From Mesodorylaimus sp. YZB2_4 (Eukaryota; Nematoda; Enoplea; Dorylaimida; Dorylaimidae), in the NCBI GenBank assembly GCA_030248295.1, contig JASANH010001234.1:744001-808000 (forward strand): 64,000 nucleotides of DNA, in the 5' to 3' direction. The translations under genes were made by a program, and so were the position numbers. Below the pieces are notes generated by a model. That model saw nothing but the letters and a program-made list of their open reading frames with translations, ran no database searches and was not told the DNA's origin. Positions 19,958 to 32,038 of this stretch are shown here, one piece after another. Numbering within the stretch: position 1 is the stretch's first letter; every line of letters begins with the position of its first letter.

Positions 19958-22192
19958 ACGAGTGCATGGGTGGTTGGTTGTTATAGGGTGACATTATGCA
20001 GCCATATTTACTGCTCTGCATGTCTAATATAAAGATGGTAACAACATTGTCATTCACGCACATAACTTTGTCACTCATCAGGAGGAGGGCCTCGAATAAA
20101 TTTGTCGTCTATTGAATCTGTGACTAGCTAATAGAAGGAGCTTATACTTAGCTATAATCTAACATTGATCTGAGGCTTTGCTCCTGCAGTAGAAGCAGCC
20201 TAATCCAAAAATTCATGCCTATTTTGGGAATAGGCTCAGTTCATGTTGATAGCGGTACTGTGTGTACTGCGCACTGACTGTTAGAGGTTAAATCGAGCTG
20301 AAGAGTCGGACTTACACAATTGGAGTTGGTGGAAGACAAGAAGCCTTGAATTTGACTTGGCTGAAATCGAGTCAGTGATTTGGACTTCCGTCTTGGGAGC
20401 AGTAAAAAGGGGCACTTTTTGCAGGAAGGAGAAAGGATTGGGTGTCTTGTCCTGATCAGATGGAGAAGGGAGAGTGGGTTTTTTTGCAAGATCTTATCTA
20501 GAGTATAAGGAGGTGTTGAAGAGAAGAAGGCGAGGCGGGCGCCAAAGTTAATTTGAGTTGTCACGTAATGGCGAATTAAAAGTGATGTCGAGTCTTGTGA
20601 CTGGAGAATGGCATTGAGATGTCCAAGAATTTTTGTACCCTTAAGCGGTCTCTGACGTTTTTTCATTTCTGATGGCCTTCTACGTAACTAAATTCGCTGC
20701 CTCGTGCTTGCTATGAAGAGTTCGTTGACTAGGTCTTGTCGTCGAGTTGACAACGAGCAAGGCCTCGTTGGTCGGTGTAATAGCGTATAAGGAAAGTCGG
20801 GCGTCAGCTTAGCTCAGAGTAGCCACCCCGACTAGGTTCGTTGAGCCGTGGCGAAAAAGCGGGCCGACGGAAATCGTTGACGAGCGAAAGGAGGCGCTGA
20901 TTGAGACAGGGGCTTCCTCGAGGGCCGTGATTCTTTCTATTTCACTCTTGCAAAGATGGCCGTTTGATCTGTAGTAGTCGAAGCAGTCTCCTTGTTTCCG
21001 TCCACCAAAGAGCCTTGCTCAATTACACGCATCGTTTGTTCGGAGTGTGGGCAATTCTTAAATTTTTCTCTTCATTCCATTCTTTTTGCTTAAAACGAGA
21101 ATCGATAAGGGTTTTGGTAGAGAGCCTTTCCGGGCCGCTATCGCAATCCTAAGTAATCGGAAACAGGAAAGCGGACGTGCCACCATACATGCTTACTTGA
21201 GCACTCCGAGCGCTGACCCTTCCGCTCGCCTGGCACTTGCAAGTGTGACCTGCGTTATCAGCTGAGAAGCAAGAGCGTTGCAGAAGCGACACAGAGGAGG
21301 TAAGAGGGGGATGTTTGTATGTCCATCCGAATGTGAGCATTCAATTCTTGTCAGCCTGGGAATTTCGATTCGAAATTTGATGTTTTCGCGGCTATGACCC
21401 CGTGGGAGTGCCCTCTCGTTTGATTTATCTTTCGTCGTTTTCGAGAGGTCCTTGTTGAAGTGCCGCGTCAAAGCCTTCTAGAAAAGGCCTTTTTCGTGTC
21501 GTGCTCTCGTGACCCTGTCTATTTATGCATTTCGCGCAAGTCACCTGCTCGAGAAGCTGCATAATTGAGTATGGATGACGAAGAGGCAATTATGAAGGCG
21601 AAATGAGGAGGCTAGTTACACGCCCCATCACACATGTAAGGTGCGAGTGTGACTGGGGTCCCTGTCAAGCTCGGGGGGACAGTCGAGTCGATTCTGTCTG
21701 TGATATACCAAGCCCTGATGACCGCGACTCCTGCGCTTTCATTTCTGTGCCAGTCGTTTTTTTGTGACTATCTCACCTCTCAAGTCGCCCGATCGCCTTA
21801 GTTAAGTAAAGACTCTTTAGTAGTGTGCCCATTGGTTTTCCCACAGCGACTTCTTCTATCCGATCGATGTGACTCTGTTGAGCTCGTTAAGGATGGGCTC
21901 ACCTGACTTGCACGCTTACATTGTCTTCGAACGGCGGAAATCCGATTGCATTCTCTGATGCCTTGTCGGCAAACAAAAAGGGTTATGAACATCTAAAAAG
22001 CAGCATATCTGCTTTGAAGCCGTTAGAGATAGTGTGCGATTGATGGGCTTCGTTCTTAATGGTGGCATTGTTCTCGCAGGTCACCTTGTTTCTGTTGGCT
22101 GCCCCTAGTATTGTGTGGGGTGTATCTCCTTACTACTGTGCATGTTTGCAGGTACATGCACGCTGGTTTCTGCAGTGGCAATCGTGCCAAGA
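19958..22192. other. Intergenic region between ADHFE1 and the GPCR
   Basis: AATAAA at 20095-20100, 138 bp after the ADHFE1 stop, is a possible polyadenylation signal. Otherwise I see no gene, RNA or repeat I can name; open frames here have no family features. A good 3' splice site (TGGTTTCTGCAG) ends at 22174, 18 bp before the GPCR ATG. Confidence 0.5.
20095..20100 (+). terminator. Candidate polyadenylation signal of ADHFE1
   Basis: Canonical AATAAA hexamer 138 bp downstream of the ADHFE1 stop; a weaker AATATAAAG lies at about 20026. Based on the hexamer alone. Confidence 0.4.
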
Positions 22193-25100
22193 ATGGAGCC
22201 GGTCGAAACAGTGTCAGTCCCAATTTGGATGTGTTCGAAGGCGAGTAATGAGTCGTGGTGGAACGCGAGCATGAATGCCAGTTGCGATGAGGCGGCCGAT
22301 GTGCACACGAGGGTGAGTCCGTATCCGCCGTGGGTGGTTATATTCCTGTGGTTGTTGACTGTGCTCTTCTCCGTCGAGACGATCCTGGGCAATTTGTTAG
22401 TTTTATTGGCCTACAAATTGGAACGAAATATACGAAGGCAGCTAAGTAATAAATTTATTGTCTCCCTGGCTATTACGGATTTAATCATCGGCATGGAAGG
22501 TTTTCCATTGCTCACCGTTTACGTGGTCGGCCGTGAACGATGGCCGCTGGGCCACTTGCTCTGCCAATTTTGGCTATTTCTCGACTACACGCTTTGTCTG
22601 GTCTCCATATTGAACGTATTGCTGATCACAGGTAGGCTGCACTCGCAGAAGAGATTCTGCGCGGATGGGGTCCCTCTCGTGGTATACCCAGCAGGTAGAG
22701 ACTATGCTTCATCATTACAAGAAGCAAGAGGGCTCTTTTACACTGACGGGAGTCGAACACGTGAGAGGCATGCAGGCAGTGAAGGCCATGCTGACCCTCT
22801 GCAATACAGTCGGGTCACTGGGCTACCCTGCCACCTCCAGCCCTAGGTACACCTCACACAGGCACAGGGGTTACGATAAGGTCTCATGCAGACAGTCTTC
22901 CCTTTTCAGTTGACCGGTATGGCTCAGTGTGCTACCCGGCCAAGTACAGAGTGTGGCAGACTCGGTCTCGAGTTCGAACATTTATCTTCATCAGTTGGAT
23001 CGTGCCTTGCATTCTGTTCGGAATGATGATATTTGCTTGGGAGCCAATGACCGGCCAAGGAATGGACGATTCGGGCAAGTGCTACGCCCCCTTTCTCAAT
23101 GACCCCTACGTCAATATGGCCATGTATATTATCTACTATTGGACCACATTGGTGGCCATGTCCGTCCTTTATCGAGGTATTCACACGGCGGCCAAGGCGC
23201 TGGAGGATAAGAGCAAAGCCCGCGAACGACAGACCATAGCACTGCTGCTCGGACAAAGGTGCATGGCGCAGGTGGGTGTGGGCATGATATTGCATTCGTC
23301 GGCAAGTGATGACGAAGATAACATGGAATCGTTCTTCCATGCACCGACCACTGTGGACGGTGGGTACGTGACTGACGAATGCGTCACTACTGAATTGGCC
23401 AGGGACACTTCTGACACTGGTACCACTGCGGCCACGGTGGCCAACAGTACTGTGCAAGGTTACGAGGAGCTGAGAGACGATATCGCCATGACGTCGGATA
23501 GCGACGAGAAGAGCCCATTAAATGTGCCAGCTATTGTCACACCAACTGTATCAGTGAGCAGTATGCGAGTAGTGGACTCACCTTCTGCTGAAAAGACTCG
23601 ATTTATACAGAAGAAACATTTGTATAGTAAATTTGGGGAAGGCGATGACGAAGAGGATGCCTCGGTGGCCCTGATGCCATTGATCGAACAATTGGACGGC
23701 CCCTCCAAGCCCCCCTCCGCATCGCCATCAATAACCAGTAGTTTTTTCACTGGGAGTCCATCCAGAGCAAAAATCTTCACCTCGTCGTACAATTCGGTTG
23801 CACCGAGTGTGAAACGATCAACTAGTCTTCGTCGAGTACTGGCGCCAATGAACTCTTACGGGGGTGTGGCTAGTCTGGCGTCGAAAACTAAACGAACCAA
23901 GCTGATCGGCTCATTGTCATTTGATGAAGAGAAGATCAGTGCTTGTAGAAAACAAAGCCCTATGCGTAAAGTATCTGCTACACTGGAGGTGAGGAAGGCC
24001 GTCTATGGTAAGCCACCGACCCCCAAAAGGAGACCAAGTACTGCCAACAATGCAATCTCGCACGCCAGCACGTGCTCGTTGGATTTCTACGACAGTAATA
24101 AAGGAAGTGTGGGCAGGTAAGTCGATGATGAACGATGCTAAGAGCTATTCTGGCTTTATGTTTGACGAGTGGCCCTTAAAATCAATGGGCTACCTGTTAT
24201 AGGTACACCTTGACTGTGAGGAGCCGGGAGAAGCTGACGCCCGTCGCCTACATGACATTTGTGAACTGCATGTACACGCGCAGTTGTGTCAGATGCACTA
24301 AACTGCCATTCCATCTGATGTGAGCCTATCAGAAACACTGTGAAGGCCAGCACTGTCACATTTCCGAATTTAATGGACTGAAAACGCACTAAACCACAAC
24401 TGCGCACTAGATAACTACAGGTTCAGGGACTTAAGAGAACGTGGAAGTCTCATACGCTGCTGTAAATGAAGAGAGGTCGCATATAGAAGTGGGGTCACTA
24501 TGGGTCATGCCGGATATGGCAAAGAATTGATGGGGTGCGAATTGTCGACAGGTAACCTCTGTGCAAGAAGATGTAGGATTTTTTATGCGACCAACCATCA
24601 ATGGGGAGCATGGATCTCCACTCTACTTATTATTAGGTCGAACTAAGCTGGAACTCAAGCAATAGGAGGTGTGGCAGGCTTTGCTAGAATGCTTCAGCTG
24701 GTGGGCGAGTGACCTTCAATGCAAGTGATGCCTGGCACGTACGCCCTCATTACAGGACTGCGTGGGCAAGGGCACTACTACAAGTAAAAGGCTAATAATC
24801 AGAGCAGAGCTATACTAGTCGACCACACACGACCCAACTCAAAGACCACGCTGCCAAAAATATTAAACTAGAAGCCACACCCTTGCCAGACAAAAAAGAC
24901 CACCAGCGGAGGTGACCTGTATTTGATTGTGTGGCCTTGATTAGCACGGACACCTTTGAGCAAGATGGGTGAAGTACGGTTTCAGATACGAGAAATACCA
25001 AACTTCTGTGTTTCAGTTTATACGGCGACACTAGTCTTCATTCAGTCTTCGATTTTGGATCTTTCGTTTCGACTATTGAGACAACGGAAGTCGATGACAA

Positions 25101-26265
25101 ACTGCAGGCATCAGCGGCAGGAAGTATGGAAACGTCCATGGTTGACAGCTCCTCCACCACAAGCACTAAGCAACAGCCAAATGGAGATTTGACCAAGGCA
25201 GTGGTGCCTGAATCGGGCACCGCTTCTTCCCTCTCGTCGGCCATCTCAGCTTGGACTCAGTCGGGGACCATATCGACCGTGAGTCAACTTAGTCCGTCCA
25301 CGTGCGAACAGTCATCCATGGCTCCTTCCACCTCATCGCCAGCAAAACTACTCCAGCTGGCCGACGAGAATGGCTCTGCGTCAGTAACCACTCCACCTAA
25401 CTCTCACTCCCAATACCCAGTCTCTTCTCGACCATCCATCCAGATCAAGATCAGTCCCGACACTGAACTTTTGACCCCCATTATCGAAGAGGAGAAGTCT
25501 ACGGCCACCACGTCCAACTCGGTCGCCCCTTCTCCCTACCTTGAATCACCACGTCGCCAGTCCTCTTCCGGCTTATTCAGTGGTCGTGGCCGACAGGGCA
25601 CTAAAAGGCAACGTGAAGACCAGAAAGTGGTTCACTTGACCGTGCCTGGATCGTCGACTGGATCGAGCAACACGGACAGACGTAAGGCCTCGACCGCCAA
25701 CAAGAAAGATAAGGGACCCACTGGGCGACGTCGCAGCGACAGGGACACCGACTGGAGCCGTTCAAGTTGGCAGTCGACCGCATCGTCCATTTACTGCGAT
25801 ACTAAGAAAAAGAACAGTCGAAAATTCGGGGGCAACATCGACGAAGATGATGATAGTTGCGCAAGTGGCAACGCCAACAGGGACGAAACCAGACCAAACA
25901 GTGCTGCTGACGAGTACCAGAATGGGAGTAGGAAAGGCTCGCATTGGTTGGTCAACCTGTTCAATAACCCGACCTCCATCTTGAATAGGAAACGTAAAGT
26001 GACTAAGGCCGAACGTCGTGCCAGGAAGGCCTTCCGTACCATAACGGTCATCGTGGGCACGTTCGCCCTCTTCTGGTCGCCCTACTACATCGTGGCTACC
26101 ATCTACGGGTTTTGTCCAGACTGCGTGCCCGCCCCCTTATTTCTCACCAGCTACTACCTGTGCTATCTCAACAGTAGTTTCAATCCGTTCGCTTACGCGT
26201 TTGCCAACAGATTGTTTAGAAAGACATTTATTCGTATCCTTCGTGGTGATCTCAGGCGTACGTGA
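22193..26265 (+). CDS. Muscarinic acetylcholine receptor-like GPCR, type-B (GAR-2-like)
   Basis: Exons 22193-22631, 22910-24116, 25017-26265 join in phase to 964 aa. N-terminus has NES/NAS glycosylation sites. TM1 has ETILGNLLVLLAY, TM2 SLAITDLIIG, TM3 WLFLDYTLCLVSILNVLLIT followed by DRY across the first splice, TM4 SWIVPCILFGMMIFAW, TM6 FRTITVIVGTFALFWSPYY, TM7 LNSSFNPFAYAFANRLFRKTF. The Asp-Tyr in TM3 is the amine-binding pair of muscarinic receptors, but TM6 has Tyr where M1-M5 have the antagonist-contacting Asn, as in the atropine-insensitive B type; this suggests a Gi/o-coupled GAR-2/mAChR-B-like receptor. The third intracellular loop spans more than 600 residues, Ser/Thr-rich, encoded by both long exons. 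ATG 22193 was chosen because a splice acceptor ends at 22174; an in-frame ATG at 22115 lies upstream of that site. Confidence 0.85.
22655..22800 (-). mobile_element. Possible SINE remnant in GPCR intron 1
   Basis: Minus strand shows CTGCCTGCATGCCTCTCACG, then GTTCGACTCCCGTCAGTG, the anticodon-region and B-box pattern of the tRNA-Glu-like SINE, but the A box is unclear. Weak match. Confidence 0.35.
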
Positions 26266-28900: not shown

Positions 28901-29054
28901 GCCTACTACAGCGGCTAGTGTATTGTGCGCATATGCACACTGTACTTCACCGTGCAGAACACAATTCTTGCCAGTTTGCTAGCGACTTTAAATTCTGGGG
29001 CCTTCAGGTCGGCAGGCTGATGCCTTAACACTGAATCACTGCATCATGCACTGG

Positions 29055-29778
29055 TGTAACCAGCGCACCCAGGCGGCGGGAGATAGTCGAGACCGAAGTC
29101 TCTAAGCAAAAAACTCCGACTGGAGGTAGGCAAGTCTCGCGACTATACCTGCTCTAGAAACATCAACCGAAGAGGTTGACGTCCCAGCCAGGGGAGCGTA
29201 TCGATTACTCCCAACCGCCAGGCGTGCTGGTCACATTCCTCCCACCGTTGGAAAAATGGCGTCCCCGCCATTCTCCAACTGGGAGAACCAACACCCCAGT
29301 GGTGGTGCCTTATCAGCGCTAGGTGTTCCACCCACCGTCGCGCTAAGGCGCACCAAACGCTCGCCGAACCTTCTCCTCCCGCGTAGGTAATAGCGGAGTA
29401 GGTTTTGCCCGCTGGCCCCTGGTGCCTACGTGGAGGCAACCCAGACCAAAGTCTGGTAGGGAGTACACCTGCAGGGAACCCTCGGGCCACAGCAAGCGCA
29501 GGCGCGCCAGTCCGGCATTCACCACAACCACCCGGGCTAGCACACTAGTCCATAAGGGGCTTACATCCGAAGAAGGCCCTTTGGTTCGTGACGCCAGTGT
29601 AACCAGCGCACCCAGGCGGCGGGAGATAGTCGAGACCGAAGTCTCTAAGCAAAAAACTCCGACTGGAGGTAGGCAAGTCTCGCGACTATACCTGCTCTAG
29701 AAACATCAACCGAAGAGGTTGACGTCCCAGCCAGGGGAGCGTATCGATTACTCCCAACCGCCAGGCGTGCTGGTCACA
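29055..29778 (+). mobile_element. Paired LTR-like element (TRIM-like): 181-bp direct repeats, 4-bp target duplication
   Basis: Direct repeats 29055-29235 and 29598-29778 look identical, each running TGTAACCAG...CTGGTCACA. Flanks are CTGG at 29051-29054 and CTGG at 29779-29782. The 362-bp interior has no ORF with similarity to gag or pol and no clear tRNA primer-binding site after the left repeat or purine tract before the right one. The last interior bases (CGTGACGCCA) are shared with the foldback element at 9846-10351. Identical repeats imply recent insertion or gene conversion. Confidence 0.85.
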
Positions 29779-30060: not shown

Positions 30061-32038
30061 CTACACACGTTGATCAGTGAACATCAGGTACAGAAAGCCG
30101 TCCTCGTCCTTGTGCTCGTTATACACCTGCTCCATAGTCAATGTCGACGCCAGCAACTCAGTACCTTTCGCCAATAAGAATAGCGGATCAGCGTAAGTCG
30201 CATCGATCTTACGCTTTATTAAGTAAGAAAGCTGATTAATAGTCGTGCTTCTTGGAACGCTTAATTTTGGCATATCGTAGTCTCTTAATTGACAGCCTTC
30301 TTTTTTAAAAATGATAAGTGGTACTCGGTCGGGATGCTGTAAGAGAGCTTTCCTACTCTCCTCGCAACGCTGGTCAAACGGACTGTTGTGCTTGTACTTC
30401 CATATATCTAAGAAGAATGAAGGGAATTAATATCTGATTGGTCAAACAGTTCTGAGCCACGCCCCCAACGACCCACAGTATTTCTCACGCACTGAAATTT
30501 GGAAAAGTCGAGACAATAAAACATGCTATGTAGAGAGTCACTGGCGATCGAGTGACTAGTGCTAAGTCTCCCTTACTTGAGCCACGATATGGTACAGCGA
30601 TTGCTGTCTGGCCATTAATGGTAGCGATGGCATCCAAAATTGCTTTGTCACTGAACAGACCCGACGTTCGAGCTTGACCAGACAAAAAATTGATCGGTAA
30701 GAGGGGCAATCGGATGCAGTCGACAACTGAGTCTGCATCGTCACGTCCGTTCAGTTCAGTCCACTTGCAAACAGCGCTGTGAATTTCCACTTCAGGGGCT
30801 GCGAAATCGTTGCGAGAGAGAAGTTCTTGGACGAGGGCCTGAAAAGAGAGCATGCGCTTGTCGTAGGGACTGTCCAATCGGCTGCAGGCCATATGGTTGA
30901 TCCACACGACCTGTATTGCACTCACGACCAGAACACCCCACATGAGAACATCCTGCTGTCAACAGCAACGTGACAGCAGGATGTTCTCCTGCAGACTGGG
31001 CCACAGCACAGCAGGTGGAATTAGGTAGACTCAAAGCTTGGCTGTACTTTCGGCTGCCGTCTATTCGCGCGGAATGTCTTGACGGCACTTTTTGATCGTG
31101 AGTGACGCGAGGGTCCATCTAGCTGTGAGACAAGATACTTGACACGCTCACTTTTGGCAACTGCAGAAATTCAGGCTTCTCCAGGACGCTACTAGCATGG
31201 CCGTCGGCAAAACGCAAGCAAGACTCAGCCAGAGCATCCATGGAGAACTCGTGGGCCGCAGTGTAAATTTCTAAGAATGTCTCCAGTGTAAGAATCGATT
31301 TCTGGTAGTCGATAATGGCGGATTCCAATTTTGTGAACAAGTATTTATTGGCCAATGCTAACATGGCCACCGTTTGGTTAGGAGCGAGCTCGGTCAAGGA
31401 TAGGCGGCCAGCGTAGATGTAACGAAGGAGCCGCTTGAACAGATCCGTGTTCGGCTCGTCAATGCGGACGACAGTTTGAGACGATTCGATCATATCATTG
31501 GTGAGAAGGATGCTGAAAATAGTTGTACAGTCCATAGGAGAGTCACCAGTAGGAGTAGGAGTATACTGTAGGGCTCTGGAAGACTGCGTCAGGTTGCAAA
31601 GGACCTGGGGGGGGGCGCAGCTTCACAATCAATTTAGGACAGCCCTACTATCTGTTTTCTTTGGGAATGTACACGCGGCCTATGCGCTAACGTGGAGGGC
31701 GTGTATATTCTCAAAGAAAACAGGTTATAACTCATTTCACAACCAGCTTGGTGCCACCTACTATAGCTTCTTAAGACGACCTCTGATATATCCTGAGACA
31801 CTTTGAGGCGTCTACATTTCCTGTAGCTGGAGGGAGCAGGGATAGGCGGGAGTAGAGAGACGCTGGGGCAACCATCTTACCGGAAGTACTCGCTTCGCTC
31901 ACACAGCACACCTTTGTGCGCTGGCAACTCTTCTCCATTGACCATCAGATTAACATCACTGAACCGAGGATTGAGGTAAAGTCGTGCCATGTCGTCTTGC
32001 ATATCGCTTCCATGCTGAATTTCCCCATCGTTGACCAT
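30061..32038 (-). CDS. BTB-BACK (BTBD9-like) protein fused to an Atg8/LC3-like domain
   Basis: Exons (minus) 32038-31881, 31512-31152, 30838-30577, 30407-30061 join in phase to 375 aa. Residues 1-170: BTB domain (FSDVNLMVNGEELPAHKGVL, LLRYIYAGRLSL); 170-258: BACK domain with RNDFAAPEVEI and RLPLLPINFL, close to BTBD9, ending at the same YRG point where BTBD9 goes on to discoidin domains. Exon 4 is a complete Atg8 domain: FDQR, HPDRVPLIIF, KLSVPRSTT, FLLAKG, VYNEHKDEDGFLYLMF. No discoidin domain was found. The Atg8 frame has no ATG of its own: a stop lies upstream of its acceptor. It ends FTDQRV-stop, without the glycine used for lipid conjugation. BTBD9 is thought to be a Cul3 adaptor and Atg8 binds LIR motifs in autophagy, so a fused adaptor is conceivable. 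Alternative: two genes with an unseen short 5' exon for Atg8; the intron 30408-30576 has a CCAAT and a GC box. Confidence 0.6.
30944..30988. repeat. Perfect 17-bp palindrome with 11-bp loop
   Basis: Arms GAGAACATCCTGCTGTC (30944-30960) and its exact complement (30972-30988) lie in intron 3 of the BTB-Atg8 gene. Could be a small foldback remnant or an RNA hairpin in the intron. Confidence 0.9.
31651..31723. repeat. Hairpin repeat, copy of 11152-11227
   Basis: Arms TCTGTTTTCTTTGGGAATGT and a complementary GTGTATATTCTCAAAGAAAACAG-type right arm around a centre with GCGCTAACGTG. In intron 1 of the BTB-Atg8 gene. Confidence 0.65.

Follow-up and report, generated by a model that had tools for sequence, protein, structure and literature searches.

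The analysis of a 64,000-nucleotide stretch of the genome of Mesodorylaimus sp. YZB2_4 (assembly GCA_030248295.1, contig JASANH010001234.1, positions 744,001-808,000 of the forward strand), hereafter the window, has revealed a minus-strand gene in which BTB and BACK domains of BTBD9 type are followed in phase by an Atg8 domain. The BTB-BACK-Atg8 order is present in the sequence, and the four exons that make it up are probably spliced into one mRNA, as judged from their splice sites and phases. The predicted spliced protein of 375 residues is likely, with a probability of roughly 0.55, to be a cullin-3 (CUL3) adaptor in which the discoidin substrate module of BTBD9 has been replaced by an Atg8 domain that could not be lipidated. 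The parts of this protein are known, and their order is new to our knowledge.

Exon structure and the BACK-Atg8 junction

When joined, the four exons form a frame of 375 codons and a stop (1128 nt). They end in phases 2, 0 and 1, and the introns that separate them (368, 313 and 169 nt) all run from GT to AG (Table 1). A first-pass annotation of this DNA had proposed four exons in phase throughout, and both its coordinates and its phases were found to be correct. Pfam recognized BTB (1.3e-21), BACK (7.1e-17) and ATG8 (1.8e-21, residues 273-374) in the 375-residue frame, the last of them at 76.7 bits (cut-off 27). The BTBD9 type of the BTB and BACK sequence was indicated by Pfam, protein search, alignment and tree. 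The next exon in phase had been described as a full Atg8 domain without an ATG of its own and with an in-frame stop before its acceptor, and this description holds: fold matches to Atg8 were found for the exon 4 product in addition to the Pfam match, its open reading frame starts after a stop at 30427-30429, ahead of the acceptor, and there is no in-frame ATG 5' of the domain.

Splice sites were scored with matrices derived from introns that homology defines in the BTBD9-type and Atg8 genes of the host (17 donors, 16 acceptors). Both sites of intron 3 lie within the leave-one-out ranges (4.0 to 12.2 for donors and -2.7 to 14.1 for acceptors), and in the surrounding 6 kb equal or better scores are reached by about 1.0% of 395 GT and 1.7% of 404 AG, the intron 3 sites included. 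A codon-usage analysis trained with 10 of 14 exons (four were left out for frame errors) placed the correct frame of the Atg8 exon at the top of the six, yet 6.2% of random window stretches reach its score; exons 1-3 are matched by 0.8-2.9% of such stretches.

According to a different explanation no fusion exists in the cell: the BTB-BACK gene would end in intron 3, while the Atg8 exon would be either a retrocopy in decay or part of a gene of its own whose first exon has escaped notice. The Atg8 copy is indeed intronless and has neither ATG nor C-terminal glycine, its codon score is weak, and exon 3 can be read into intron 3 as far as a stop at 30485. This explanation is nevertheless considered improbable, because the donor and acceptor are good and in the correct phase, the gap of 169 nt gives scant room for a promoter and a first exon, and the host has sibling genes of like design, one of them fused inside an exon. 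In addition, tblastn with the discoidin part of the host BTBD9 found no discoidin in the 64-kb window (the sole match had an E of 4.0 and an internal stop), and no ubiquitin-like exon usable by BTB-BACK was found there by tblastn, so that no other C-terminal module for the BTB-BACK exons is visible within the window.

Decay of the Atg8 exon is also opposed by its 114 open codons despite about 35% identity to host GABARAP. In a simulation of neutral decay (2000 runs per identity level, indels not counted), which presumes a host GABARAP parent and no divergence during a functional period, runs without a stop numbered 36/2000 at 36% identity, 46/2000 at 42% and 86/2000 at 50%. Among the 22 columns that are invariant in ten other Atg8s, 13 are kept, compared with 27 of 91 elsewhere when host GABARAP is the reference (Fisher p 0.013) and 28 of 91 elsewhere with human GABARAPL2 (p 0.024). 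The window Atg8 is regarded, with some doubt, as a fast-evolving yet functional domain.

An exon order produced by an assembly chimera is very improbable. The order rests on one assembly, but the window contains no N, exons 3 and 4 are separated by 169 nt on an 885-kb contig that holds the whole locus, their junction is in phase, and a single copy of the locus was found by DNA search (40 of 821 candidates scored). Neither a haplotig nor a second copy of the fusion was found in that search, in which the remaining matches all fell in one stretch of intron 1 (31635-31752), a dispersed repeat. This stretch is a short palindromic repeat that resembles a small non-autonomous transposable element, with at least 39 copies elsewhere in the genome at 91-99% identity among the candidates scored.

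Table 1. Features of the window gene, of its ubiquitin-like siblings and of the surrounding DNA. Window positions are given unless a contig stretch is named (L036, C235 stretch; L037, C143 stretch).
Feature	Location	Strand	Description
Exon 1	31881..32038	-	Start codon and N-terminal half of BTB (MVNDGEIQ...SEYFR); phase 2 end at GTAAGA
Exon 2	31152..31512	-	Remaining BTB (phi-x-E motif M-I-E) and first part of BACK; phase 0 end at GTGAGC
Exon 3	30577..30838	-	Remaining BACK as far as YRGS; phase 1 end at GTAAGG
Intron 3	30408..30576	-	169 nt, separates BACK from Atg8; donor 7.3 bits, acceptor 8.3 bits
Exon 4	30061..30407	-	Whole Atg8 domain in a single exon, without own start codon; ends FTDQRV-stop, without C-terminal Gly
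BTB-BACK-ubiquitin-like gene, C235	L036 2026-4473		BTBD9-like, ubiquitin-like domain after BACK, Pfam ubiquitin 3.1e-11
BTB-BACK-ubiquitin-like gene, C143	L037 2737-4512		BTBD9-like, ubiquitin-like domain after BACK, Pfam ubiquitin 8.5e-12
Rhodopsin-type receptor (7tm_1)	22109-26265	+	Three open stretches, strand opposite to the fusion gene (Pfam)
Other Pfam matches among open window stretches			EGF, LBP/BPI C-terminal, iron alcohol dehydrogenase, DEAD

Pfam gave matches for seven of the ten long open stretches analyzed in the window, and none of these matches is relevant to the fusion. A 182-nt direct repeat with identical copies (29054-29235 and 29597-29778, 543 nt apart) is located immediately downstream of the fusion gene.

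BTBD9 and its paralogs in the host genome

The host genome searched comprises 145 Mb in 1067 contigs, and its paralogs are labelled by contig (C18, C235, C143, C36, C1 and C56). The 31 Wnt matches obtained in this genome, together with a canonical BTBD9, mark it as metazoan. This BTBD9 lies on C18, and in its spliced model Pfam recognized BTB, BACK and F5/8 type C, the last in two stretches. A protein search with an alignment of four genes, scored on the 7984 candidates sharing most words, gave 1249 matches; along most of C18 BTBD9, identity to the BTBD9s among the best 120 of them is 52-64%, with one at 47%. The window gene resembles this BTBD9 in its BTB-BACK half, which is 46% identical across the shared part, in the phi-x-E motif, in the end at YRG and in the nearby phase-1 intron; unlike it, the window gene has an Atg8 domain and lacks both discoidin domains. 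The earlier statement that the BTBD9-like part ends at YRG agrees with the C18 gene, which enters its discoidin part there through a phase-1 intron at YRGFL/I (the slash marks the intron), one codon away from YRGS/N in the window. A six-frame Pfam search of the genome for discoidin gave three matches, none of them on C18, where the discoidins were found via exon reading; six-frame searching therefore misses real domains that are split by introns.

In two BTBD9-like genes, one on C235 and one on C143, BACK is followed by a ubiquitin-like domain. A single open exon of C235 runs from the last part of BACK into this domain, so the fusion there is independent of splicing, and the corresponding junction of C143 is a tentative intron of 45 nt. 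Both genes share a phase-1 intron position (N-G/x) in the ubiquitin-like part, and neither ubiquitin-like domain ends in Gly-Gly. The hydrophobic patch of ubiquitin, which we take to be L8, I44 and V70, is not kept in C235. Beside the full C235 gene, on the minus strand (L036 9196-8795 and 6335-6222), lies a further, partial copy of BACK and ubiquitin-like exons in inverted orientation. Upstream of it, at the expected site of the first exons, the DNA is A-rich and of low complexity over a long distance; this copy possibly represents a gap or a decayed duplicate.

Three BTBD9-like paralogs of the host are, in sum, devoid of the discoidin pair and have a beta-grasp domain in its slot, which is ubiquitin-like in two of them and Atg8 in the other. 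The C235 and C143 genes share with the window gene the BTBD9-derived group, the BTB-BACK exon-end phases, which are equal in the three genes, and the beta-grasp slot, and they differ from it in having a ubiquitin-like domain instead of Atg8. In a BTB-BACK tree of 19 rows, with 3 of 16 inner branches starred, the window gene joins the pair C235 and C143 at 91/97 through an unstarred fork, the pair itself is found at 99/92, and the four host genes group at 82/84 with the canonical C18 outside. The simplest reading of these sequences would be that lineage-specific BTBD9 duplicates swapped the discoidin pair for beta-grasp domains. A real fusion in the window gene is made more likely by the siblings, whose equivalent slot holds a ubiquitin-like domain that is fused within a single exon in one case.

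The Atg8 domain and its LIR-docking site

Like GABARAP, GATE-16 and LC3, the window domain has a complete Atg8 fold, with 42/113 residues identical to human GABARAPL2 and 40-41/113 to the host GABARAPs. Unlike them, it is the C-terminal module of a longer frame, without start codon, introns or C-terminal glycine, and it is altered at the site that docks the LC3-interacting region (LIR). Its end aligns with V114 of GABARAP and the glycine used for conjugation is not reached; the three other Atg8 genes of the host have the C-terminal glycine, and all three contain introns. Descent from GATE-16 (GABARAPL2) would agree with the number of residues in common, but the window branch of the Atg8 tree is extremely long, too long to be placed, and the tool flagged its placement as unsure. 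NCBIfam left the Atg8 exon unmatched, as expected of a prokaryote library. Two near-identical GABARAP proteins (C36:226403 and C1:1714223) are encoded on different contigs with the same intron positions, and the start of the last exon of the LC3-type gene on C56 was placed by reading frame and not by a scored splice site.

The first-pass annotation had also suggested that the fusion protein reads LIR motifs directly. At the positions that we take to form hydrophobic pockets 1 and 2 (HP1 and HP2) of the LIR site, of which E17, V51, Y49 and L50 are mentioned in papers, the window Atg8 keeps 6/8 in HP1 and 3/6 in HP2. The residues kept are E17, R28, P30, I32, K48, F104, V51, P52 and L63, and those changed are Y49L, L50S, I21A and K46M, plus L55. 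In GABARAP and GABARAPL1, Y49 and L50 are mutated together to disable LIR docking (PMC10289813, PMC8172835). Direct LIR reading is consequently weakened by the change of these two residues to L and S, although the pocket positions that are kept still speak for it, and it is uncertain for this domain. The face corresponding to the ubiquitin-interacting motif (UIM) type of docking reads F-L-L-A, similar to F-L-L-V of LC3B, and the window Atg8 may have a changed range of ligands or dock them on another face.

The same substitutions (Y49L, L50S, I21A and K46M) are compatible with a fusion protein that is made but whose Atg8 no longer reads LIR motifs and instead provides the BTB-BACK dimer with a beta-grasp docking module that is structural or has another specificity. 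The very long branch and the ubiquitin-like domain in the equivalent slot of the siblings point in the same direction, but the LIR-site residues retained, the higher retention of invariant Atg8 columns and the LC3B-like UIM-type face point away from it, and this alternative is judged unlikely, though it deserves more weight than the absence of a fusion.

Proposed CUL3 link, novelty and significance

The phi-x-E motif of BTB domains contacts CUL3 (PMC3616122), and the M-I-E of the window gene aligns with the M-E-E of SPOP; the corresponding motifs are M-R-E in C18, L-K-E in C235 and M-S-E in C143. BTBD9 has been described as an adaptor of CUL3-RING ligases (PMC7181851). The putative role of the window protein as CUL3 adaptor is thus supported by its family and by the kept motif. 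The human CUL3-KBTBD6/KBTBD7 ligase is recruited by GABARAP to the membrane substrate TIAM1 (PMC5538626; structure 4xc2) and likewise ties a BTB-containing CUL3 adaptor to an Atg8 protein; that tie is non-covalent, through a LIR of the adaptor and a separate GABARAP, whereas the window Atg8 is located within the predicted frame of the adaptor.

In the proposed mechanism, a duplicate of BTBD9 would have captured an Atg8 retrocopy, the later exon 4. CUL3 would be bound by the BTB dimer via the M-I-E motif, and the Atg8 domain could be a soluble docking face that joins autophagy-related partners and the ligase, in either direction, through the residual LIR site or the UIM-type face. The window protein would be a cis counterpart of human CUL3-KBTBD6/7, where free GABARAP acts in trans, and the use of the same kinds of part in both suggests the same link.

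Several results weigh against the adaptor fusion as proposed. The BTB-BACK-Atg8 order was seen in one species alone, and a protein search with the fusion gave 10 matches (nine BTB-BACK proteins and one Atg8), none with both domains. BTBD9 is not named in the main text of a 2026 compendium of human E3 ubiquitin ligases, as covered by a term search (PMC13061254). The BTB-BACK tree is poorly resolved and the host genes adjoin a nematode row in it (86/98). To these are added the unsure placement of the window Atg8, its LIR-site changes, the codon score of its exon and the presumptions of the neutral-decay simulation.

The BTB-BACK-Atg8 order had been thought undescribed, and it appears neither among the protein matches listed nor in the titles and abstract openings of the open-access literature, where no BTB-BACK-ubiquitin-like protein was found either (subscription papers were outside this scope). 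PF02991 or PF00240 occurs in none of the best 120 of the 1249 matches to the four-gene alignment, and the C235-type BTB-BACK-ubiquitin-like architecture is absent from the protein matches listed. A genome contig search with the fusion gave one match, 27% identical in the BTB region, in a metagenome-assembled genome of Verrucomicrobia, and a viral contig search with the Atg8 exon gave three pattern-matching stretches, none of which was confirmed. The C235 protein as query yielded four distant BTB matches and no BTBD9, which indicates that the reach of the word-based protein search is limited.

Taken at the level of the family, the genes may represent BTBD9-derived cullin-3 adaptors with ubiquitin-fold substrate slots, one of which has captured a non-lipidatable Atg8 that wires the ligase to the autophagy machinery; this broader proposal is tentative and somewhat short of even odds. 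In humans, the link known to us between CUL3 BTB adaptors and Atg8 proteins is the contact that KBTBD6/7 make with GABARAP through a short peptide. If true, a covalent fusion that arose in nature would testify independently, from evolution, to the importance of this link, and it would also be a natural design for recruiting a ubiquitin ligase to partners in autophagy. An Atg8 domain free of lipidation would, if true, reveal which capacities Atg8 has without a membrane anchor, and the siblings with BTB-BACK and a ubiquitin-like domain suggest that a beta-grasp domain can act as substrate module of CUL3 ligases.
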